Source: an uncultured Oscillospiraceae bacterium
Lineage (GTDB): Bacteria > Bacillota > Clostridia > Oscillospirales > Oscillospiraceae
Reading direction: 5' to 3'
Assembly (NCBI GenBank): GCA_947630785.1
Contig: CANRIW010000069.1
Coordinates: 1-48,103, forward strand
DNA length: 48,103 bases
Made by a program: the position numbers and the translations under genes. Each line of letters begins with the position of its first letter. Position 1 is the first letter of the stretch. This document shows positions 2,564 through 25,419 of the stretch, piece by piece. The notes under the pieces are model-generated. The model did no database searches. It saw only the letters and a list, made by a program, of their open reading frames with translations, and was not told the DNA's origin.

Positions 2564-2627
2564 TTTACAAATAGTTCACAAATCATTCACCCTTTGTTCA
2601 TGAAATACCCCGGCGGCAGGCTATAAT
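2564..2627 (+). promoter_or_regulatory. Pho-box-like promoter for two small peptide genes
   Basis: Four hexamers follow at an exact 11-base period: TTTACA (2564), TTCACA (2575), TTCACC (2586) and TTCATG (2597), each separated by five bases. TATAAT follows at 2622-2627. TT(A/C/T)ACA direct repeats at an 11-base period are the known binding pattern of PhoP/PhoB response regulators. No acceptable -35 hexamer is present, as expected for an activator-dependent promoter. A second copy of this arrangement faces it from 3159 on the other strand. Confidence 0.65.
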
Positions 2628-2730
2628 GCGCCATGGTCGGTGGAACACTGCCGGCTGGAAGAACCAACCAGGGCCGGTCCCTCGCCGCGGAGGGAGACGG
2701 GCCCGCGCGTAAATGGAGGATCATCGTACC

Positions 2731-2835
2731 ATGTATATGCTTGCTTATAAGAACACCTGCCAGCGGAAGGAGACCCTTCTGCACAAGATCGGCAGGATCC
2801 TGAAGAAGATCATCAGTTTTCCTGCCGAGGCGTAA
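2731..2835 (+). CDS. Small basic peptide 1 (34 residues)
   Basis: A short gene for a 34-residue basic peptide starting MYMLAYKNTCQRKETLLHKI, with an amphipathic LHKIGRILKKIISF stretch. ATG at 2731 is preceded by TGGAGGA at 10 bases. It lies downstream of the Pho-box-like promoter and 17 bases ahead of a second peptide gene, with one terminator behind both. No family is recognised. The lysine-rich amphipathic helix could be membrane-active or could bind a protein partner; both are guesses. About 100 transcribed bases before the ATG (2634-2710) can fold into GC-rich hairpins, so translation could be controlled. Its reality rests on the ribosome site, promoter, partner gene and terminator. Confidence 0.6.
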   Translation: MYMLAYKNTCQRKETLLHKIGRILKKIISFPAEA

Positions 2836-2852
2836 AGGAGGCCGAAGCGCCC

Positions 2853-2945
2853 ATGAGTCTCAGTGAATTCAAGAACATCCACTTCCGCAGGTTCCGGGTC
2901 TGGTTGCTGAGGGCCCTGAGCCGCAGGAGCCGCAGAGCCGCATGA
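2853..2945 (+). CDS. Small arginine-rich peptide 2 (30 residues)
   Basis: A 30-residue, strongly basic peptide beginning MSLSEFKNIHFRRFRVWLLR and ending in an arginine-rich RRSRRAA tail. ATG at 2853 has AAAGGAGG (2834-2841) 11 bases upstream, overlapping the stop of peptide 1, so the two are probably co-translated. The stop at 2943-2945 is followed after nine bases by a strong terminator. No family is recognised. Two ribosome sites in a row in a short transcript argue that both peptides are made. Function unknown; a phosphate-starvation role is inferred only from the promoter. Confidence 0.6.
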   Translation: MSLSEFKNIHFRRFRVWLLRALSRRSRRAA

Positions 2946-2954
2946 GCCTGCCTT

Positions 2955-2981
2955 CACCGCCCCTCGGGGCGGTGTTTTTTT
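2955..2981 (+). terminator. Terminator of the small-peptide operon
   Basis: CACCGCCCC (2955-2963) pairs with GGGGCGGTG (2966-2974), followed by seven T. Confidence 0.9.
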
Positions 2982-3004
2982 GTCCGGAGACCCGGCGGGC
3001 AAAC

Positions 3005-3090
3005 GAAAACCCCTCCGGTTTCCCGGAGGGGTTCGCGTTTTGAGAAAAGAGAGAGGGAGGATAGAAGGTGTCTGGTTTGCTTCCTGACGA
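3005..3090 (-). ncRNA. Possible Pho-controlled small RNA (about 85 nt)
   Basis: On the minus strand a Pho-box-like promoter with TATGAT at 3100-3095 is followed within about 85 bases by a terminator: CCCCTCCGG/CCGGAGGGG (3031-3023 and 3018-3010), then TTTT. A 14-codon ORF (ATG at 3094) could be read, but it lacks a ribosome site. The element sits between the stop of the carboxypeptidase gene and the convergent peptide operon. A separate small RNA is an inference; it might instead only be the 3' end of the dacF-type transcript. Confidence 0.4.
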
Positions 3091-3094
3091 TGTC

Positions 3095-3159
3095 ATCATA
3101 GCAGAGTCTCCCCCGCTAATGTTGGACAATTTAAAAACCTTTTGTGAAGGTTTTGTGAA
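3095..3159 (-). promoter_or_regulatory. Second Pho-box-like promoter, facing left
   Basis: Read on the minus strand: TTCACA (3159-3154), TTCACA (3148-3143), TTTTTA (3137-3132) and a weak TCCAAC (3126-3121), all at an 11-base period. TATGAT follows 20 bases further on (3100-3095). The spacing mirrors the plus-strand copy at 2564-2627 (19 bases from the fourth repeat to the -10). Confidence 0.6.
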
Positions 3160-3203: not shown

Positions 3204-4361
3204 TCAGCCTTGGAGGAACATCCCCGACAAAAACTGCTTGAAGATGCCGAACAGGGACAGCCGCTCCACCCCTTCGGACGCCACCAGGTCGATGGAGTCC
3301 ACGGCCTCTCCGTCCACCATGACCTCCAGCCGGCCCAAAATCTGTCCGGGCTCCACCGGGGCCTCCACGCTGTCCGCCAGGGTCATCCGGGTGGCCACCG
3401 CCCCGGCCTTGGATTTCTCCAGCAGGACGGAGCACTCACGGGCCGTCACCGGCTGGACGGTGTCACACCGGCCCAGCTCCACCTTCACCGGCGGGATGGG
3501 CCCCTCAGGGTACACCGGCGTCAGCGCGTAAGTGGCGAAGCCGTAGCTCAGCAGGGCCTTGGCGCTCTCGAACCGGTCGTTGGAGGTGGGGGCGTGCATG
3601 ACTGTGGCGATGAGCTCCATGCCGTCCCGCTCCGCCGTGGCGGACAGGCAGTACAGGGCGGAGTCGGTAAAGCCGGTCTTGAGGCCGGTGGCACCCTCGT
3701 AGTAGAAGATGAGCTTGTTGGTGTTGGCCAGCTGGAAGGCCCCGTCCCGGAGGGTGTCCATCCAGATGGTGGTGAACTCCCGGATGGACGGGTGGTTCAA
3801 AATCAGCTCCCGGCTCATGAGGGCGATGTCGTATGCGCTGGTGAGGTGCCCCTCGGCGGGCAGGCCGGTGCAGTTTTGGAAGGTGGTGTCGTTCATGCCC
3901 AACTCCTTGGCACGCTGGTTCATCCGCTCCACAAAGGCGGCCTCGCTGCCGGCCAGGTGCTCCGCCAGGGCCACGGCGCAGTCGTTGGCGGAGGCCACCG
4001 TCACCGCCTTCACCATGTCCCGGACGGACATCTGCTCGTTCTCCTTCAGCCAGATCTGGGACCCGCCCATGGAACAGGCGTAGGCGGAGGCGGTCACCGT
4101 ATCGTCCCAGCCCAGGGCGCCGGAGTCGATGGCCTCCATCACCAGCAGCAGGGTCATCACTTTGGTCACCGAGGCGGGCTCGTACTTGGTGTGGGCGTCC
4201 TGCTCATAGAGGATCCTACCGGTGGTCTTCTCCATCAGCACGGCGGAGGGGGCGGTGATGGCCACCGGGGCGGCGGTCTCCGCCGTCTCCGCCCGGGCGG
4301 TCTGGACGGATATGGGGCATAATAGGGCAAGCGCCAGCAAGCAGGCGGTGAATTTTTTCAT
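3204..4361 (-). CDS. D-alanyl-D-alanine carboxypeptidase (PBP5/DacF type)
   Basis: A 385-residue penicillin-binding protein that trims the terminal D-Ala from peptidoglycan stem peptides outside the membrane. It has a signal peptide (MKKFTACLLALALLCPISVQ, cleavage near ARA-ET) and the three serine-peptidase motifs: SVTK (SxxK, about residue 67), SAND (SxN, about 127) and KTG (about 234). The C-terminal third is the beta-rich PBP5 domain, ending in an amphipathic FGIFKQFLSGMFL anchor. The start at 4361 is chosen for GGAGG eight bases upstream and because the signal peptide begins there. In spore formers DacF acts in the spore cortex; whether this copy is sporulation-specific cannot be told. 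The sigma-factor gene lies divergent. Confidence 0.93.
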   Translation of the reverse strand: MKKFTACLLALALLCPISVQTARAETAETAAPVAITAPSAVLMEKTTGRILYEQDAHTKYEPASVTKVMTLLLVMEAIDSGALGWDDTVTASAYACSMGGSQIWLKENEQMSVRDMVKAVTVASANDCAVALAEHLAGSEAAFVERMNQRAKELGMNDTTFQNCTGLPAEGHLTSAYDIALMSRELILNHPSIREFTTIWMDTLRDGAFQLANTNKLIFYYEGATGLKTGFTDSALYCLSATAERDGMELIATVMHAPTSNDRFESAKALLSYGFATYALTPVYPEGPIPPVKVELGRCDTVQPVTARECSVLLEKSKAGAVATRMTLADSVEAPVEPGQILGRLEVMVDGEAVDSIDLVASEGVERLSLFGIFKQFLSGMFLQG

Positions 4362-4490
4362 GGGGATACCTCCGATCTTGGAAATCATTCTCCTCACAAG
4401 GATGTGGAGGACGGGCGATTTTATGCGCGGCGGAGACCGGAGGGTTTCTCCGTCAGCGGCAAAAACTGGATAGCATGTTCCGAAAAAAGA

Positions 4491-4519
4491 TTGCGTCGGG
4501 CCGCGTCTTTTCGTAATAT
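4491..4519 (+). promoter_or_regulatory. Promoter of the sigma/anti-sigma operon
   Basis: TTGCGT (4491-4496), a 17-base spacer and TAATAT (4514-4519) lie 65 bases before the sigma-factor start. Confidence 0.55.
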
Positions 4520-4584
4520 AGAGGTGAAAAATCCGTCTTTCCGGGTGAAGGGCCTTCACAACACAGGAGAAAGGAGGAGCGCCC

Positions 4585-5157
4585 ATGGAGGACAGCGCCA
4601 TCGTGGAACTGTTCTGGTCACGCAATTCCCAGGCCATCTCGGAGCTGCAGAACAAATACGGCGGGGTATGCCAGTCCGTGGCCGCCCGACTGCTGGGCAG
4701 CGTGGAGGACGGCCAGGAGTGTCTGAATGACGCCCTGCACCGGGTCTGGAACACCATCCCGCCCCAGCGGCCCCGCTCCCTGCGGGCCTATCTGGGCAAG
4801 ATCGTCCGGAACTTGGCCATCGACCGCTGGCGGGAGCGGTCCGCCCAGCGGCGGGATGGGGAGGTGGCCTCCCTCACCGCCGAGCTGGAGGACTGCCTGC
4901 CCGCCGCCCCCAGCGCGGAGGCGGTGGCTCAGGGCAATGAGACCGCCGCCGCCATCGACAGATGGCTGGGCACCCTGTCCAAAGAGGACCGGGTGCTGTT
5001 CGTCCGCCGGTACTGGTACGGGGACCGGGTGGACGAGCTGGCAAAGCGCCGGGGCGTCTCCCCCAACAATCTGGCCCAGCGGCTGTTCCGATTGCGGAGC
5101 GGCCTGAAGCGGGCCTTGGAACAGGAGGGCGTCATCGTATGCGCGAACAGAGTTTGA
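4585..5157 (+). CDS. RNA polymerase sigma factor, ECF (sigma-70 family)
   Basis: A 190-residue ECF-type sigma factor. Region 2 is seen at about residues 20-90 (QECLNDALHRVWNTIP, then LRAYLGKIVRNLAIDRWRER). Region 4, a helix-turn-helix, is at about 125-180 (LSKEDRVLFVRRYWYGDRVD, then ELAKRRGVSPNNLAQRLFRL). ATG at 4585 has AAAGGAGG about nine bases upstream. The last 19 bases overlap the next gene, which encodes a single-pass membrane protein, so this is a typical sigma/anti-sigma pair. The signal it answers and its target promoters are unknown. Confidence 0.88.
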   Translation: MEDSAIVELFWSRNSQAISELQNKYGGVCQSVAARLLGSVEDGQECLNDALHRVWNTIPPQRPRSLRAYLGKIVRNLAIDRWRERSAQRRDGEVASLTAELEDCLPAAPSAEAVAQGNETAAAIDRWLGTLSKEDRVLFVRRYWYGDRVDELAKRRGVSPNNLAQRLFRLRSGLKRALEQEGVIVCANRV

Positions 5158-6988: not shown

Positions 6989-7029
6989 AAAAAGCTGCCC
7001 CATGGCTTGCGCCGTGGGGCAGCTTTTTT
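6989..7029. terminator. Bidirectional terminator between rubredoxin and the Mo hydroxylase
   Basis: AAAAGCTGCCCCA (6990-7002) pairs with TGGGGCAGCTTTT (7015-7027), with GGC/GCC added inside. T runs flank on both strands. Confidence 0.9.
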
Positions 7030-9862
7030 ATCCGTCGGAGCGGGCGGAGGCGATCTGCTCGGGGGTGATGGGCAGCTCGTAGAACCGCCGGCCGGTGGCC
7101 TGATAGACGGCGTCGGCGATGGCGGGCAGGGGGGTGTTGATGACGATCTCCCCGATGGACTTGGCCCCGAAGGGCCCCGAGTCCTCGTAGCTGTTCTCAA
7201 AGGCCACGTGGATGTGTCCCACGTCCAGCCGGGTGGGTATTTTGTACTGCATAAAGGAGTTCTCCCGCACCCGGCCCTTTTCGTCGTAGGTGACGTTTTC
7301 GGTGAGGGCCATGCCGATGCCCTGGACGATGCCCCCCTCCGCCTGGACCCGGGCCAGGTTGGGGTTGATGGGGGTGCCGCAGTCCACGCAGGCCCAGAAG
7401 TCCACCACCCTGGCGGCGCCGGTCTCCGGGTCGATCTCCACCTCGGCCACCCCGGCCATGTGGGGGGGCGGCGAGTTGGGGGAGCTGTGGGTGTCGGCGG
7501 CCTCCAGGGCCACGTTGTGGCCGCACATGGAGGCGGTAACGATGTCGTCCAGGGAGACGGCCCGGTCCGCGTCCCCCAGAGCACAGACCCGCTTCCCATC
7601 GAACTCCACCTGCTCAGGGGACAGGGACAGCAGTTCCGCGCCCAGTTTGCAGATCTGCTCCCGAAGCCTGCGGGCGCAGTTCTCCACCGCCTTGCCGGTG
7701 ACGTAGGTGGTGCTGGAGGCGTAGGAGCCGGAGTCGTAGGGAGAGACGTCGGTGTCCGCGCCGAACACGGTGATGTCCTCCACCGGGCAGTCCAGCACCT
7801 GGGCGGCGATTTGGGCCAGGATGGTGTCACAGCCGGTGCCCATGTCCGCCGCGCCGATGGAGAGGGTGTAGTAACCCTGCTCGTTCAGCTTCAAGGTGGC
7901 GCTGCCCACGTCGATGCCGGAGATGCCGGAGCCCTGGAGGGCCATGCCCATGCCCATGGCTTTGATCTTGCCGTCGGGGAGCGTTCGGACGGGGAACTTC
8001 TCATCCCAGCCGCTCATCTCTCTGACTTTGGCCAGGCAGCGGTCCAGGGCGCAGCTTGTATTGGTCTCGCCGAAGTAGGCGGGCATCACGTCCCCTTCCC
8101 GGACGATGTTTTTCTCCCGGAGATCAAAGGGGTCCATGTGCAGCTCCGACGCCAGCTCGTTCACCGCCGACTCGATGGCAAACAGTCCCTGGGTGGCCCC
8201 GTAGCCCCGGTAGGCCCCGGCGGCCATTACGTTGGTGTACACCACGTCGCTGACAAAGCGGAACGCCTCCGCCTTTCCGTACATGGGGATGGCCTTATGG
8301 CCGGACAGGCCCACGGTGGTGGGGCCGTGCTCGCTGTAGGCACCGGTGTTGGACAGGGTATAGAGGTCGATGCCCCGGATATGCCCGTCCCGCATGGCCC
8401 CCAGCCGCACATGCAATTGCATCTCGTGCCGGGGGCAGGAGGCGGTCATGGACTCGGCCCGGGAGTAGATCATCTTGCTGGGCTTCTTGGTCTTCCAGGT
8501 GACAAAGGCGGGGTAGATCTCGGACACCACCGTCTGCTTGGCCCCGAAGCCGCCGCCGATGCGGGGCTTGGACACCCGGACCATGGACTGGGGGATGCCC
8601 AGGGCAGCGGCCACGATCCGTCGGGCGTGAAACACGATCTGGGTGGAGCTCACCACGTGGAGCCGACCGTAGGGGTCGATGGTGCAGAAGGTGCGGAAGG
8701 TCTCCATCATGGACTGCTGGCATGCCTTGGTGTGGTACACCCGGTCGATGACCACGTCGCATCCGGCCAGAACCTTGTCGATGTCCCCGCCGGCGCTCTC
8801 CTCGTGGGCGCAGAGGTTGCGCATCTGGTCCGCCCCCACGGGGCAGATGCTCTCCCAGTTGTCCTCCGGGTGGACCACCACGGGGGCGTCCAGGGCTTTG
8901 GTATAATCCAGCACCGGCTCCAGCACCTGATATTTCACTTTGATGAGTTTCAGGGCTTTATCCACAGCCTTTTCCGTCTCCCCGGCCACGATGGCCACCG
9001 GGTCGCCCACATAGCGGACGTGGCGGTCCAGCAGCAGGCGGTCATGGGGGCTGGGCTCGGGCCAGGTCTGGCCGGCGGTGGTGAACCGCTTGCCATGCTG
9101 GTCCACGTCCTGCCAGGTGTAGACCGCCTCGATCCCCTCCACACGCTCCGCGGCGGCGGTGTCGATGTCCTCCACCAGGGCATTGGCGTGGGGGGAGCGG
9201 AGCACCTTGACGATGAGGCAGTCCCTGGGGGCGATGTCGTCGGTGTACACCGGCTGACCGGTGACCAGCTGCATGGCGTCCTTTTTCCGCACCGGCTGGT
9301 TGACAGCCTGAAAGGCCCTGGCCCGGGCCTTCTCGTGATAGCCCTGCTGGGGGGCGTCGGCGGGATTCCAGTTGGGGAAGGACTCCGGCGCGTCCTCGCC
9401 GGCCTCCCGGCGCCTGCGCCACTCCCTGAAGTTGAGCATCCCCCGGAGCTGGCCCTCGTAGCCGGAGCAACGGCACAGATTGCCCGCCAGGTACTCTCTG
9501 ATCTCCTCCTCGGAGGGGTCGGCGCTGTCCCGGAACAGGGAGATGGCGTTGAGGATGAAGCCGGGGTTGCAGAAGCCGCACTGCTCCGCCCCCTGGTCGG
9601 CGATGAACGCGCCGAACCGGGCGGCCTCCCGCTGGAGGCCCTCCAGGGTGGTGACCTCCCGGCCGTCGACGCGGGCGGCCAGCACCGAGCAGGACAGGGC
9701 CGGCTGTCCGTCCAGCAGGACGGTACACAGCCCGCAGTTGGAGGTCTCGCACCCCCGCTTGACGCTGTAACAGCCCTCCCGCCGCACCAGGTCGATGAGC
9801 AGCAGGTCGGGGGCGACGTCACGGGTCAGCTTTTTCCCGTTGAGGGTGAATGTGATGTCCAT
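7028..9862 (-). CDS. Molybdenum hydroxylase, fused 2Fe-2S and Mo-cofactor subunit (XdhD/selenate-reductase-like, purine dehydrogenase)
   Basis: A 944-residue cytoplasmic enzyme of the xanthine dehydrogenase family. Residues 1-160 hold two 2Fe-2S clusters: GCETSNCGLCTV with a later Cys, then CGFCNPGFILN and CRCSGY. From about 190 to the end is the molybdopterin-binding part with GGGFGAKQ, AYRGYGATQG, GAADMGTGCDT and GAKSIGE, whose Glu is the catalytic base in this family. Length and many segments resemble E. coli XdhD, the putative selenate reductase/hypoxanthine oxidase Mo subunit, but this copy keeps all the cluster cysteines that XdhD has lost. It lies 12 bases after the FAD subunit gene and beside xanthine permease and Xpt, so purine hydroxylation is the likely job. 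Members of this group can carry a labile selenium; that cannot be seen in sequence. Confidence 0.9.
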   Translation of the reverse strand: MDITFTLNGKKLTRDVAPDLLLIDLVRREGCYSVKRGCETSNCGLCTVLLDGQPALSCSVLAARVDGREVTTLEGLQREAARFGAFIADQGAEQCGFCNPGFILNAISLFRDSADPSEEEIREYLAGNLCRCSGYEGQLRGMLNFREWRRRREAGEDAPESFPNWNPADAPQQGYHEKARARAFQAVNQPVRKKDAMQLVTGQPVYTDDIAPRDCLIVKVLRSPHANALVEDIDTAAAERVEGIEAVYTWQDVDQHGKRFTTAGQTWPEPSPHDRLLLDRHVRYVGDPVAIVAGETEKAVDKALKLIKVKYQVLEPVLDYTKALDAPVVVHPEDNWESICPVGADQMRNLCAHEESAGGDIDKVLAGCDVVIDRVYHTKACQQSMMETFRTFCTIDPYGRLHVVSSTQIVFHARRIVAAALGIPQSMVRVSKPRIGGGFGAKQTVVSEIYPAFVTWKTKKPSKMIYSRAESMTASCPRHEMQLHVRLGAMRDGHIRGIDLYTLSNTGAYSEHGPTTVGLSGHKAIPMYGKAEAFRFVSDVVYTNVMAAGAYRGYGATQGLFAIESAVNELASELHMDPFDLREKNIVREGDVMPAYFGETNTSCALDRCLAKVREMSGWDEKFPVRTLPDGKIKAMGMGMALQGSGISGIDVGSATLKLNEQGYYTLSIGAADMGTGCDTILAQIAAQVLDCPVEDITVFGADTDVSPYDSGSYASSTTYVTGKAVENCARRLREQICKLGAELLSLSPEQVEFDGKRVCALGDADRAVSLDDIVTASMCGHNVALEAADTHSSPNSPPPHMAGVAEVEIDPETGAARVVDFWACVDCGTPINPNLARVQAEGGIVQGIGMALTENVTYDEKGRVRENSFMQYKIPTRLDVGHIHVAFENSYEDSGPFGAKSIGEIVINTPLPAIADAVYQATGRRFYELPITPEQIASARSDG

Positions 9863-9874
9863 ATCCGCCCTCCT

Positions 9875-10660
9875 TTACTTCAAAAGCCGCTCGGCGGCGC
9901 GGCGGGTCAGGGTCTTGATGAGGTGGGTGCGGTACTGAGCGCTGCCCCGCAGGTTGGAGCCGGTGGGGATGGCCTCGGCGGCATAAGCGGCGATCTTCTC
10001 CGGAGCGTCCGGGCCAAAGGGCGGGCACAGGACGCCGTCCTTGTCCAGGAGCAGGACGGCCCTCTGGGGCCGGGCCCCCACGGCGATGCGGAGGCCGTCA
10101 TCGCTCAGCGCGGCGGCGCAGGTGAGGGCGGGAAAATCGGTCTCGGTGTTCCGGGCGGACAGATAGCTGAACTTCGCGGGGACCCTGCGGACCAGCAGCC
10201 GCACCAGGATGTCCCGGTCATAGGGCATGGCGGCAAATTCGCTCAGCGGCATAAGGCCGCCCTTGTAGAGCTCCACCCAGGTCTCCATGGACAGGAACAG
10301 GGTGAGCACGTCGGAGAAGCCGAACCGGCCCCAGATGCTCCCCCCCACGGTGGCGCAGTTGCGGAGCTGCACCCCCACGATGTGCCGCAGGGCCTCCCGG
10401 ACCGCGCCGCCGGAGTAGGCGTCCAGACCGGGGTGGGTCTCCAGCTGTCGGAGGGTGACCATGGCCCCGATGGAGAAGCCCTCATCGGTCTCCTCGATGG
10501 CGTCCAGGCCCAGGCCGGACAGGTCGATGGCGGTGTTGACGCTCCGGCTGCTTATCTTTGTCCAGATCATGCCGCCTAGGACCATGTTGTTCCGCTTTTG
10601 ATTCAGCGTCCAGGCCTCCTCCAGGCTGCCGGCGCGCTTATACTCCCGAATGGTGATCAT
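9875..10660 (-). CDS. Molybdenum hydroxylase FAD-binding subunit
   Basis: A 261-residue protein of the CO-dehydrogenase/xanthine dehydrogenase medium-subunit family, which passes electrons from the 2Fe-2S clusters to FAD and on to an acceptor. Visible FAD-contact segments are NNMVLGGMIWTKI (replacing the usual AGGTDL loop) and NCATVGGSIWGRFGFSDVLT, the diphosphate-binding loop. The length fits the short selenate-reductase-type FAD subunits (about 257), not the longer XdhB. ATG at 10660 has GGGAGG upstream. It is the first gene of the operon, with the Mo subunit following after 12 bases. Confidence 0.88.
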   Translation of the reverse strand: MITIREYKRAGSLEEAWTLNQKRNNMVLGGMIWTKISSRSVNTAIDLSGLGLDAIEETDEGFSIGAMVTLRQLETHPGLDAYSGGAVREALRHIVGVQLRNCATVGGSIWGRFGFSDVLTLFLSMETWVELYKGGLMPLSEFAAMPYDRDILVRLLVRRVPAKFSYLSARNTETDFPALTCAAALSDDGLRIAVGARPQRAVLLLDKDGVLCPPFGPDAPEKIAAYAAEAIPTGSNLRGSAQYRTHLIKTLTRRAAERLLK

Positions 10661-10723
10661 GGGGCCCTCCCTTTATACGCGCTTTTCCCGAACGCCGGAA
10701 AAGCAATCATTTTGTGACAGTAT

Positions 10724-10764
10724 ATCATATTATCCTTGTCAAGTACAGCACAATGTGATAAACT
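10724..10764. promoter_or_regulatory. Overlapping divergent promoters of the hydroxylase operon and mocA-like gene
   Basis: Rightward: TTGTCA (10736-10741), 17 bases, TAAACT (10759-10764). Leftward: TTGTGC (10753-10748), 18 bases, TATGAT (10729-10724). The two promoters overlap, so one regulator could govern both; none is encoded next to them. Confidence 0.5.
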
Positions 10765-10803
10765 CCGAGACGATCACAGAACAGACTGGAGGGAATCGCC
10801 ATC

Positions 10804-11388
10804 ATGGGGCGGAGAATCAGCTGTGTGCTCATGGCCTCCGGAGCGGGAAAACGCTTCGGGGGGGACAAGCTGATGGTCCCGTTTGGGACGGAGCCCATGA
10901 TCTGCCGGGCGCTGGCCGCCACAGACACGCCGCTCATCGCCTGCCGGGTGGCGGTCACCCGAAACACGGAGGCGGCGGAGCTGTGCCGCCGGATGGGAGC
11001 GGCAGTCGTTCTGCATGACCTGCCCCACCGGAGCGACACCGTCCGCCTGGGGCTGGAGGCCCTGGGGGAGGGCCTGGCGGGCTGCCTGTTCTGCCCCTGT
11101 GACCAACCCCTGCTGACCAGGGCGTCGGTGGAGGGGCTGTGCCGCCGGTTCCTGGCGGAGCCGGAGTTCATCTGGCGTCTGGCGTATGATGGCGAGGCTG
11201 GAAGTCCGATCCTCTTCCCCGCTGACTGTTTCCCGGCCCTGATGGCCCTGCCGGAGGGAGAGGGCGGTTCTTTTGTCGTCAGGGCGCAGCCGGAGCGGGT
11301 GCGGCTGGCGGAGGCGTCCTCCCCCTGGGAACTGCGGGACGCGGACACCCGGCAGGATCTGTCAGAGCTGCTGGAACACATAAAATGA
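10804..11388 (+). CDS. Molybdenum cofactor nucleotidyltransferase, MocA/YgfJ family
   Basis: A 194-residue MobA-like NTP transferase. The signature loop LMASGAGKRFGGDKL near the start binds the nucleotide; HRSDTVRLGL and the CPCDQPLLTRASVEGL segment (metal-binding DQP) follow, then GSPILFP. In this family the enzyme attaches CMP (MocA) to molybdopterin for xanthine-dehydrogenase-type enzymes. YgfJ-type members are found with selenium-dependent hydroxylases. It is divergent from the hydroxylase operon, supporting a maturation role. ATG at 10804 has TGGAGGG upstream. Confidence 0.85.
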   Translation: MGRRISCVLMASGAGKRFGGDKLMVPFGTEPMICRALAATDTPLIACRVAVTRNTEAAELCRRMGAAVVLHDLPHRSDTVRLGLEALGEGLAGCLFCPCDQPLLTRASVEGLCRRFLAEPEFIWRLAYDGEAGSPILFPADCFPALMALPEGEGGSFVVRAQPERVRLAEASSPWELRDADTRQDLSELLEHIK

Positions 11389-11417
11389 GCGCGGTACGGC
11401 GGGTACCGCGCTCATTT
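11383..11417. terminator. Bidirectional terminator, mocA-like gene / xanthine permease
   Basis: AAATGAGCGCGGTAC pairs with GTACCGCGCTCATTT across a short loop. The stop codon of the mocA-like gene (11386-11388) lies inside the stem. Confidence 0.8.
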
Positions 11418-11433
11418 CACATTTTGAGAGATG

Positions 11434-12888
11434 TTACTTGTCGGCCTTCTGGAGCTCAGCCTGCTCCTCGGCCTCGATCTGCTTGTCCTCCGCGTCCTTG
11501 GGCAGGAGGATATTCAACAGGATGGCCACCACAGCGGTGGGAACGATGCCGGAACCGCCGAAGACCAGCTGGACGTACTCGGGGGTGTGGGCCAGGATGC
11601 CGGGGTTGGCGCCCATGCCGTAGCCCACGCCCAGGGCCACTGCCACGATGGACAGGCTGCGGGCGGTGAGATGGTGCCGGGTGATGAGCTGGATGCCGCT
11701 GAGCACGATGGAGGAGAACATCATGACCGCCGCGCCGCCCAGGACGGACTGGGGCATGATGGACACGATGGCGCCCAGCTTGGGGATCAGGCCGCAGAGG
11801 ATCAGGAATACCGCGCCGCAGGCCAGGGCCATCCGGTTGACCACCTTGGTCATGGCCACCAGACCCACGTTCTGGCTGAAGGAGGTGTTGGGCAGCACAC
11901 CGAACAGGGCGGCGATGGAGGAGCCGATGCCGTCGCAGATGACGCCGCCGGACAGCTCCTTGTCAGTGGCCTCACGGTCCATGCCGCCCACGATGACGCC
12001 GGAGATGTCGCCCACCGTCTCCACGGCGGTGACGATGAACATGATGGCCACCGGCAGGATGGCCCGCAGATCGAACACCAGGGGCACGGGCACCACATGG
12101 GGGATCTCGAACCAGGCGGCCTCACCCACCTGGCTCCAGTTCAGCACCCAGGACTTGGTGTACTCAACCCCGTCCACCACAAAGGTGTGGGGCAGGACCA
12201 GGCCCATGATAAAGGCGGCGATGTAGCCCGCGATGATGCCCACCAGGATGGCGGAGGAGCTGAAGAAGCCCTTGGTGCAATGCTTCACCACCAGGATGAC
12301 CACCAGCACGAAGGTGGCCAGCAGCAGGTTCTCCATAGAGCCGAAGTCCTGGGCGGTGTTTCCGCCGCCATAGGAGTTGATGCCCACCGAGATCAGGGAC
12401 AGGCCGATGGACAGCACCACGGTGCCGGTGACCACCGGCGGGAAGAACTTGCGCAGGGGCTTGAGGAAGAAGCCCAGCACGCCCTCGAACAGGCCGCCGA
12501 TGAGGGACGCCCCCATCATCGCTCCATAGGTGAGGATGCCGCTGCCCAGGGAGTTGGCCACACCGCTGAACACGCCGATGAAGCCGGAGGAGGTCCCCAT
12601 GATGATGGGCACCTTGCCGCCGATGGGGCCGATGGCGAACAGCTGGATCAGGGTGACGACGCCGGCGATGAGCATGGCGTTCTGCAGCAGGGACACCCGC
12701 AGGTCGGCAAACTCGGCGTTGCCGGCCAGACCGCAGGCGCCGGTGATGACCAGCAACGGGGTCAGGTTGCCCACAAACATGGCCAGCACATGCTGGAGCC
12801 CCAGCGGGATGGCCTGGGCCAGGGGCATTTTGCCGTCAAATTGATAGGCAGCCTGGGAAAGTCCCTTTGTTGTCTTTTCATTTTGCAT
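11434..12888 (-). CDS. pbuX: Xanthine/uric acid permease, NCS2 family
   Basis: A 484-residue nucleobase:cation symporter with about 12-14 membrane segments. Typical NCS2 features are the HVLAMFVGNLTPLLVITGAC segment near the N-terminus, a GTSSGFIGV segment, and the family signature NTSFSQNVGLVAMTKVVNR in the middle (the Q-N region that sets substrate choice). A charged 25-residue C-tail follows. The start at 12888 was preferred to the ATG at 12903 because GGAG lies nine bases before it. The gene is next to Xpt and the purine hydroxylase genes, so xanthine import is the inferred role. Confidence 0.9.
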   Translation of the reverse strand: MQNEKTTKGLSQAAYQFDGKMPLAQAIPLGLQHVLAMFVGNLTPLLVITGACGLAGNAEFADLRVSLLQNAMLIAGVVTLIQLFAIGPIGGKVPIIMGTSSGFIGVFSGVANSLGSGILTYGAMMGASLIGGLFEGVLGFFLKPLRKFFPPVVTGTVVLSIGLSLISVGINSYGGGNTAQDFGSMENLLLATFVLVVILVVKHCTKGFFSSSAILVGIIAGYIAAFIMGLVLPHTFVVDGVEYTKSWVLNWSQVGEAAWFEIPHVVPVPLVFDLRAILPVAIMFIVTAVETVGDISGVIVGGMDREATDKELSGGVICDGIGSSIAALFGVLPNTSFSQNVGLVAMTKVVNRMALACGAVFLILCGLIPKLGAIVSIMPQSVLGGAAVMMFSSIVLSGIQLITRHHLTARSLSIVAVALGVGYGMGANPGILAHTPEYVQLVFGGSGIVPTAVVAILLNILLPKDAEDKQIEAEEQAELQKADK

Positions 12889-12932
12889 ATCTCGTCTCTC
12901 CATTTCTCATATTTGATGAATGGAACAGCGGT

Positions 12933-24258: not shown

Positions 24259-25419
24259 ATGATCAAGGAAATGTGCGTAAAAGAAAGTTCTTTTAGGAAA
24301 CTTGATGACCCATTTTTGAATGGGAAATCAAAAAAGTATGTATTTTATGTAAAGGTGGATGATGTCGCAGAAGGAATCCCCATGGCTACGAATCCGCGGG
24401 AACAATCCCTGAAATCTGCAGTTGCTACTGCGATTACGGAATCTCTTTTAAGCAACGATGGTTATTTCCATTTAAAGAATCGCGGTATTGTACTTTCAGC
24501 GGAAAGTGTTCACTACAATAATCGAACAGGAAGAGTGAGCATTTCTTTTTCTGATGAGCTTACCCATGGAAACATTGATGGAGGCCATACTTACAAAATA
24601 ATTTGTGAGCACAAAGGGGAAAACCTCGATCAGTATGTACAATTTGAGGTTATGACTGGGGTAGAAGATATTATCGACAGCCTTGCGGAAGCTAGAAATA
24701 CTTCTGTCGAAGTTGATGCAAAATCTATGGCTGAACTGCGGGCTAAGTTTGAGCCGCTTAAAGAAGCATTAGAGGGGATGCCCTTTTATAAGCGGATTGC
24801 TTTTAAGCAAAATCAAGTTTATGCGGATGAGACGACTGGGAAAAAGCTCCGTATGATTGATGCAAAAGAAATTGTGGCTCTTGTTAGTATGTTCGATATT
24901 GAACGCTATGGGAGTGGGAATCACCCTGTTCAGGCATATTCATCAAAGGCAAAAATGTTAGAGATTTATTTGGAAAACCCAGAGCATTATAGAAAATATG
25001 TTAATATTATGCCAGACATATTTGACCTTTATGAAGCGGTTGAATGTGAATTTGCTGACGCGTATAATGAAACTGGTGGCCGCTATGGGAGAAAAAAGTA
25101 TTCGGGGTATAAAGACGGAAAAATGGTATGGAAAAGCAAATTTGGTATGACAGAAATGGCATATAAGATTCCCGAGGGACTACTCTATCCTGTCATCGGT
25201 GCGTTCCGAACCCTCCTTTGCTATAACCAAAACACAGAAAAATATGAATGGAAGAATCACACCGACCCTGTTCAAGTATGGGAACATTGTAAAAGCAATC
25301 TTGTGGGAAAGATTATGAACTTTGCAGCTGCGATTGGGGATAATCCCAATGCAGTAGGGAAAGACCCCAATGTATGGGATTTAAGCTATATGACCCTTAT
25401 GATTGTTAGTAAGGAGTAA
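24259..25419 (+). CDS. AIPR-like abortive infection protein
   Basis: A 386-residue protein that looks like a member of the AIPR (abortive infection phage resistance) family. Supporting segments are LKNRGIVLSAESVHYNN (about 76-92), a D-G-G-H-T-Y-K motif (IDGGHTYKII, 113-122) in place of the family's NGGQT, and LAEARNTSVEVDAKSMAEL (154-172), the N-T-x-x-x-V-x-x-R/K pattern. AIPR proteins act as phage-triggered abortive effectors in defence islands, often with restriction genes. The gene is AT-rich compared with its neighbours, a sign of transfer. A small XRE gene follows after five bases. The family call is by motif only; a database search would settle it. Confidence 0.7.
   Translation: MIKEMCVKESSFRKLDDPFLNGKSKKYVFYVKVDDVAEGIPMATNPREQSLKSAVATAITESLLSNDGYFHLKNRGIVLSAESVHYNNRTGRVSISFSDELTHGNIDGGHTYKIICEHKGENLDQYVQFEVMTGVEDIIDSLAEARNTSVEVDAKSMAELRAKFEPLKEALEGMPFYKRIAFKQNQVYADETTGKKLRMIDAKEIVALVSMFDIERYGSGNHPVQAYSSKAKMLEIYLENPEHYRKYVNIMPDIFDLYEAVECEFADAYNETGGRYGRKKYSGYKDGKMVWKSKFGMTEMAYKIPEGLLYPVIGAFRTLLCYNQNTEKYEWKNHTDPVQVWEHCKSNLVGKIMNFAAAIGDNPNAVGKDPNVWDLSYMTLMIVSKE

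Follow-up and report, generated by a model that had tools for sequence, protein, structure and literature searches.

Facing promoters with four presumed tandem regulator sites for a putative translation-blocking small RNA and a two-peptide mRNA in an uncultured Oscillospiraceae bacterium

A locus of an uncultured Oscillospiraceae gut bacterium is probably the output of a two-component system and would comprise translation-blocking small RNAs (sRNAs) and a facing peptide mRNA, both expressed from promoters with four tandem sites (tetrads) of the OmpR/PhoB-family type. It was found in a 48,103-nt stretch of DNA (48 kb), contig CANRIW010000069.1 of GCA_947630785.1, which we analyzed as a whole and refer to as the window. 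The organism belongs to the Pseudoflavonifractor / Candidatus Enterenecus group and its own genome (G000) is 98.5% complete. In the mechanism we propose, a phosphorylated OmpR/PhoB-family response regulator would occupy four tandem 11-bp sites and recruit RNA polymerase to promoters whose -10 is good and whose -35 element is poor or missing. One promoter would yield an sRNA of ~85 nt whose unpaired CCUCCCUCUCUCUUUUCUC tract could pair with purine-rich ribosome-binding sites and block translation of a set of mRNAs. From the facing promoter, an mRNA would be made that encodes two short, basic and amphipathic peptides and is induced along with the sRNA.

Both promoters were located by their hexamers. 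The peptide promoter (plus strand) consists of TTTACA (2564), TTCACA (2575), TTCACC (2586) and TTCATG (2597) at an exact 11-bp step (2564..2602), presumably the activator site of the peptide mRNA, followed 19 bp past the fourth hexamer by the -10 element TATAAT (2622..2627). A poor -35, ATGAAA, overlaps the fourth hexamer, and with it a simple scan gave a 10/12 sigma-70 match. The sRNA promoter (minus strand) consists of TTCACA (3159), TTCACA (3148), TTTTTA (3137) and TCCAAC (3126), again with an 11-bp step (3121..3159) and presumably an activator site, and of the -10 element TATGAT (3095..3100), 20 bp past the fourth hexamer; here the simple scan found no sigma-70 match with a -35 on the minus strand. 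The two facing promoters claimed in an earlier, sequence-only reading of this DNA are therefore both present, each made up of four hexamers in strict 11-bp steps with a -10 that follows after 19 or 20 bp, and the peptide and sRNA transcripts share the one promoter logic it had proposed.

That reading also held that the shared geometry makes chance unlikely. Within the single sequence this argument is weaker than claimed, for when the window was shuffled 200 times with dinucleotides preserved, a tetrad with at least 20/24 matches arose in 39 shuffles and one with at least 17/24 matches plus a 5/6 -10 in 41. When only matches to TTCACA are counted, the two promoter tetrads rank first among the distinct tetrads of the window, at 20/24 and 18/24, and the next distinct one, at 24353, reaches 17/24. 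Tetrads alone are only moderately improbable in 48 kb, yet a chance origin is ruled out because the tetrads are conserved in relatives, and it is this conservation that settles the reality of the promoters. With a matrix trained on the sRNA family, including the window sRNA's own promoter, the window promoters scored 32.4 and 18.5 compared with 11.6 for the best unrelated tetrad. Three of 54 candidate stretches were dropped as unrelated sequence, leaving 51 distinct family promoters that were scored. In 48 of these 51 sRNA promoters the spacing from the fourth hexamer to the -10 is exactly 20 bp, and the layout of 11-bp direct repeats at a fixed distance from the -10 is, as had been suggested, typical of an OmpR/PhoB-family regulator. 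For 34 non-redundant promoters, information content was 1.59 bits per base in the hexamers, 1.75 in the -10 and 0.90 in gaps and spacer, with the family consensus TTCACA-N5-TTCACA-N5-TTCTCA-N5-TCCAAC-N20-TATNAT. Hexamers three and four of the RNA promoter correspond to the consensus hexamers TTCTCA and TCCAAC and are not degenerate leftovers; the supposedly weak fourth repeat, TCCAAC, is itself the conserved family sequence at that position.

The tetrad of the peptide promoter recurs with its 19 bp spacing in five genomes (G000, G004, G024, G008 and G320), and the sister-genus promoters that were scored (two distinct ones of g18, one of g30) retain a tetrad 20 bp ahead of the -10. We also scanned 952 kb of collected DNA for tetrads followed by a -10 at a distance of 18-21 bp; the regions had been chosen around related features and do not represent a random sample. 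The scan returned 73 distinct matches. These comprise 55 first-class sRNAs (by pattern), 5 peptide promoters, 6 matches at 5 sRNAs of a second class described below, the loci L165 and L070, and 5 others that look unrelated.

The sRNA itself (3000..3090, minus strand) is about 85-90 nt long, with ends placed from the -10 and a terminator-like hairpin. It carries a conserved 5' motif, GTCAGG (3083..3088), and a near-invariant, anti-Shine-Dalgarno-like pyrimidine tract of 19 nt, CCTCCCTCTCTCTTTTCTC (3042..3060), which is predicted to be unpaired. In the predicted fold, a terminator-like GC-rich hairpin with a broken T run, TTTTCGTTT, occupies 3001..3040. The minus-strand RNA with a terminator that had been proposed thus stands as far as the hairpin (3040-3001) is present in the fold, but the T run is interrupted and the hairpin is absent from a simple terminator scan that does list the terminator on the plus strand. 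Covariance model R1, of which the window's own copy is a part, matches the sRNA at 2997-3108 with 105 bits.

When 641 bases of the region were searched with blastn, 23 of 40 genomes gave a match, namely the own genome and 22 of 24 same-genus relatives, and none of the 15 genomes outside the genus did; most matches span just the sRNA and its promoter. The short RNA and its repeats are therefore conserved in relatives as anticipated, with the tetrad promoter kept. We fetched 20 sRNA loci holding 25 copies, each of five loci containing a tandem pair. The -10, the 5' GTCAGG and the tract or a close variant are kept in all 25 copies; the middle and the hairpin sequence are variable. A pattern scan of genome contigs for GTCAGG plus tract returned 34 stretches, titled Pseudoflavonifractor (including named strains), Candidatus Enterenecus, Oscillospiraceae, or uncultured, Clostridiales or Bacillota bacterium. 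Model R1 was positive in 10 of 295 genomes of the order: the own genome, four of the same genus and five of two sister genera, with 45-52 bits in four genomes of g18 and 38 bits (E 5e-4, the weakest match of all) in one genome of g30. Assignment to a known RNA family was rejected, as the window has no Rfam match at gathering score; between 2400 and 3300, 19 matches at E up to 10 all fall below the gathering scores and none is named LhrC.

The window RNA is predicted to fold with a weak hairpin at its 5' end and a strong one at its 3' end, and a pyrimidine stretch between the two stays single-stranded (-34.1 kcal/mol, z -3.8). Over 50 distinct transcripts, the predicted probability that the tract CCUCCCUC is unpaired has a median of 0.94 and a minimum of 0.57, compared with 0.69 when the flanks are shuffled. 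The RNAalifold consensus is weak (-0.74 kcal/mol, nine predicted pairs): five pairs form the terminator hairpin, three of these five with changes on both sides, and the remaining four fall over the -10 region, outside the transcript as we place it. An anti-start-codon CAU is present in some sRNA copies only. Taken by its sequence, the sRNA looks made for blocking ribosome-binding sites.

As an anti-Shine-Dalgarno sequence, the tract is generic. Its 11-mer complement, GAGAGGGAGGA, has three exact matches in the own genome, the sRNA locus and two others, both of which are at ribosome sites, those of pheT and of an ammonium-transporter-like gene (names from reading translations). A transporter-like gene of G320 and G024 also has the complement at its ribosome site, where complementarity extends over 15 consecutive bases. 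In 41 genomes of the genus taken together, the 11-mer occurs 175 times versus 195 times for a reversed control (hand-added counts that include the sRNA loci) and is not enriched; because of this comparison, the target search was set aside despite its ribosome-site matches and no target is claimed. Feedback of the sRNA on the mRNA of its candidate regulator was likewise rejected. In each of the five genomes with peptides, a 9-nt match (GGAGGATAG) exists between the sRNA and the ribosome site of the regulator itself, but when cognate and swapped pairings were compared over 24 genomes, related and thus not independent, 401 of 5000 permutations were as good, a weak result overall.

We consider it improbable, though worth weighing, that the tract is mainly a protein-binding site, the target of an RNA chaperone or an RNase, and not an anti-Shine-Dalgarno element. 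Its 19 nt are nearly invariant, which is more than Shine-Dalgarno pairing needs, and the lack of enrichment of exact complements in the genus points the same way. The tract is, however, mostly unpaired, its CCUCC core is common to a second sRNA class with a different body, and for LhrC and the csRNAs, compared below, action on mRNAs through such motifs is reported or proposed.

The second class comprises six loci from six genomes (L075, L180, L187, L191, L192 and L193). Most have a TGTCA/TGACA-like 5' hairpin, and the core TCCTCCCTCT is common with the first class. The 952-kb scan found a tetrad promoter in five of the six loci, and in four of six the sRNA adjoins a gene of the Amidase_3 plus SH3 type (by reading; checked with Pfam for L187 and L192). 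As a separate observation, tetrad- or sRNA-like transcripts lie beside MiniIII/NFACT-type genes in L165 (around 545-830) and L074 (around 1501-1622); the one in L165 follows a PemK/MazF-like gene and its body is longer and different.

On the plus strand of the window, a leader of ~100 nt separates TATAAT from the first peptide frame. Peptide 1 (2731..2835; 34 aa) is basic, with a pI of 9.9 and an amphipathic stretch, and is preceded by the Shine-Dalgarno sequence GGAGG at 2715; if translation began instead at the in-frame ATG at 2713, the product would have 40 aa. Peptide 2 (2853..2945; 30 aa) is arginine-rich, with a pI of 12.0 and its own GGAGG-type ribosome site, AAAGGAGG. A terminator (2955..2981) with a stem at 2955-2974 and a T run, detected by the simple terminator scan, closes the unit, which agrees with the earlier description of two peptide genes with good ribosome sites and a terminator. 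By eye, neither peptide has an obvious signal peptide or transmembrane segment. Peptide 2 is present in the five genomes that carry the peptide promoter, out of 42 in the genus. Peptide 1 is present in four of the five; in G008 another reading frame stands in its place (by reading). Pairwise dN/dS values are 0.26-0.51 for peptide 1 (four genomes) and 0-0.32 for peptide 2, and the ribosome sites and the tetrad are retained alongside the peptides. The predicted conservation of the peptide frames is thus borne out by purifying selection within these five genomes, and judged by their sequences both peptides are coding. They are most likely clade-specific, the facing peptide promoter having been seen in one small clade only. 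Of the paired layout expected in relatives, co-occurrence of sRNA and peptide promoter was found in this small clade, but the sRNA is far more widespread than the peptides.

An action of the two transcripts on each other, as had been suggested, is possible, and nothing singles it out. The sRNA matches the Shine-Dalgarno sequence of the first peptide over 7 nt. This match, the convergent layout and the small, basic, amphipathic nature of the peptides would suit a type I toxin-antitoxin pair in which the convergent sRNA silences a toxic peptide mRNA. We nevertheless judge such a pair highly unlikely and rejected it: an antitoxin RNA should co-occur with its toxin gene, but many genomes that contain the sRNA lack the peptides (sRNA in 22 of 24 same-genus relatives, peptide 2 in 5 of 42 genus genomes). 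The transcripts, as we place them, moreover end without overlap, and both promoters carry one kind of activator site; antitoxin RNAs are usually constitutive. We favor a reading in which sRNA and peptides would be induced together.

A D-alanyl-D-alanine carboxypeptidase gene (Peptidase_S11 and PBP5_C; 3204..4757, minus strand), whose true start is probably an internal MKKF, is located just upstream of the sRNA. By sequence, the sRNA is linked to a carboxypeptidase gene and, in most genomes in which both could be placed, also to a two-component system. The own genome encodes seven OmpR-type regulators. The candidate regulator at C12:8503-9192 has orthologues at 79-97% in 40 of 41 other genus genomes, the exception (G005) being 64% complete. 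Both sRNA and regulator could be placed in 36 genomes; in 27 of them the sRNA lies on the same contig 1.8-2.7 kb from this regulator (25 of 27 at 1.8-2.1 kb), and the order sRNA, dacF (the DD-carboxypeptidase gene), regulator, kinase was seen in 7 loci; in the own regulator locus, a ComEA-like helix-hairpin-helix frame precedes the regulator (by reading). The remaining nine genomes, with sRNA and regulator on different contigs, are G014 and G015 (short contigs or contig starts), G012, G316 and the five genomes with peptides; in each of these five, the sRNA adjoins another carboxypeptidase, of the window's type. The linked system would activate both promoters, perhaps in response to an envelope-related signal.

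Several findings speak against this regulator. In the window's own clade, it and the sRNA are on separate contigs. No conserved box was found before the linked regulator, between dacF and regulator, in 8 loci. The sister-genus genome G281 carries an sRNA copy, and none of its five regulators matches the candidate at more than 45%. In G007 (98% complete) the candidate regulator is present and the sRNA was not found. For these reasons we regard the OmpR/PhoB-family system beside the DD-carboxypeptidase gene as the leading candidate and not as the identified regulator. Autoregulation of the linked system was rejected owing to the missing boxes, notwithstanding one fair pair in the own regulator locus (TTTACA-N5-TTTACG, score 13.4) and pairs of ~11 at the dacF start in two other loci. 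No curated NCBIfam regulator model reached its cut-off for the candidate protein. It is rather unlikely, yet far from negligible, that the same sRNAs and type of regulon are governed by another OmpR-family protein, of the L226 or L228 type, and that the linkage on the dacF side is incidental. Orthologues of these two own regulators were found in all four genomes compared (own, G003, G013 and G281), including at 73% and 77% in the sister-genus sRNA carrier, and the missing box at the linked regulator also speaks for them. The frequency and narrow distance range of the linkage argue against them, as does the own genome, which near both genes shows just a weak opposite-strand three-box match at L226.

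PhoB and PhoP promoters have OmpR-family direct repeats at an 11-bp step ahead of the -10, and the 11-bp TTCACA-like repeats of the window resemble Pho boxes of other phyla, such as those of PhoP in Bacillus and Streptomyces. The sequence-only reading had proposed a phosphate-starvation unit, with PhoP/PhoB acting on both promoters when phosphate is scarce. We find this very improbable and abandoned phosphate control. The PstS model (TIGR02136) has no match in the own genome and was found in 13 of 14 control genomes. PstB (TIGR00972) has no own-genome match at E 1e-60; it exceeds its cut-off in 24 of 41 genomes of the genus and in none of the five peptide-bearing genomes, two of which (G008 and G024) are <80% complete. 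Genomes that bear the sRNA, are at least 92% complete and have no PstB over cut-off include G000, G004, G016, G018, G022, G320 and G328. The pst-adjacent regulators of G003 and G013 show at most 43% identity to any of the seven own OmpR-type regulators, compared with 77-90% for genus orthologues, so that the own genome has no orthologue of the two pst-linked regulators compared. No TTCACA-type tetrad above score 9 was found in 12 pst regions of relatives (one, L122, ends at a contig end). In the 11 of these regions where pstS could be located, it is preceded by TTTACA-type boxes in another geometry and spacing (by eye), with clear repeats in most loci and less regular ones in L121 and L124. 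The likeness to the Pho regulon is hence one of direct repeats at an 11-bp step before a -10, and box sequence, geometry and gene content differ. In addition, PhoP of Mycobacterium tuberculosis binds repeats of this kind and is not known to act in phosphate control, so a TCACA-type motif need not mean phosphate. That protein binds TCACAGC repeats with a 4-bp spacer, three or four motifs with higher affinity than two (PMC4832192). Its TCACA-core motif every 11 bp resembles our tetrads, but phylum, regulator and the full motif, TCACAGC, are different.

CiaR is an OmpR-type regulator. The csRNAs of streptococci are several sRNAs expressed from CiaR promoters with direct repeats at an 11-bp step, and they carry an unpaired stretch complementary to Shine-Dalgarno sequences (PMC3091779). 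All of these traits recur here, OmpR-type control as a proposal and the unpaired anti-Shine-Dalgarno stretch as a prediction. The CiaR site in that source, however, consists of two TTTAAG boxes (TTTAAG-N5-TTTAAG) searched for at 10 bp from the -10, whereas we find four TTCAYA-type boxes ~20 bp away; most csRNAs there also have an anti-start-codon stretch, and they have two stem-loops (PMC3091779). LhrC1-5 of Listeria are multicopy, LisR-dependent sRNAs whose CU-rich (UCCC) motifs pair with a ribosome site and whose signal is cell-envelope stress (PMC4132741). Multiple copies, two-component control (here inferred) and a CU-rich motif are shared features, and an envelope signal may be another. 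In contrast to the one long tract of the window sRNA, LhrC has three redundant CU sites, and the LisR-responsive element, upstream of -53 and with no consensus at that paper's date, differs from a tetrad (PMC4132741). To neither group was a sequence relation found in the window at Rfam gathering score. The arrangement most likely works like csRNAs and LhrC and is a member of neither, because promoter boxes, RNA body and lineage differ.

As a more tentative extension, which we hold to be possible but doubtful, the locus may reflect an undescribed envelope-sensing two-component system of Oscillospiraceae with RNA as its main output. Such a system would drive several classes of sRNAs from tetrad promoters, all with a common anti-Shine-Dalgarno tract; one class adjoins a DD-carboxypeptidase gene and another a cell-wall amidase gene. 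In the window's clade the sRNA would feed back on the ribosome site of the regulator, and the two cationic peptides, induced at the same time, would form a recently added protein arm that acts at the membrane or on the kinase. A narrow-term full-text literature search, judged by title and abstract, returned no paper on sRNAs of this bacterial group, and their biology seems little studied in the open literature covered by it. What is gained here is a defined sRNA family whose signature can be searched for, along with a promoter architecture open to testing and a candidate for the system in control. If true, the arrangement would be an independent case of the csRNA/LhrC solution, in which a two-component system is combined with redundant anti-Shine-Dalgarno sRNAs, and the rule behind this convergence would become testable.

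Several minor observations concern further sites and genes. TTCAYR-N5-TTCAYR occurs 233 times in 41 genus genomes versus 55 times for a reversed control pattern (summed by hand), and further regulon members may therefore exist. In L022, L156, L159 and L163, a two-box TTCAYR pair lies ~9 bp ahead of a -10 and before the mcsA-like gene of a clpC operon, a geometry unlike that of the tetrads. Pairs in L157, L158 and L024 stand ahead of mraZ/rsmH-like and murA-like genes; they are weak by tetrad score and would fit an envelope theme. All these pairs, at mcsA-, mraZ-, murA-like and other genes, were rejected as promoters of the present type, as they fall below the tetrad score with a -10 at this distance. 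By reading of open frames, the window further contains a frame resembling an RNA polymerase sigma factor (4585-5157), divergent from the carboxypeptidase gene, and a cluster (7028-12903) with xanthine dehydrogenase subunit-like frames, a MobA-like nucleotidyltransferase and a xanthine/uracil permease-like frame.
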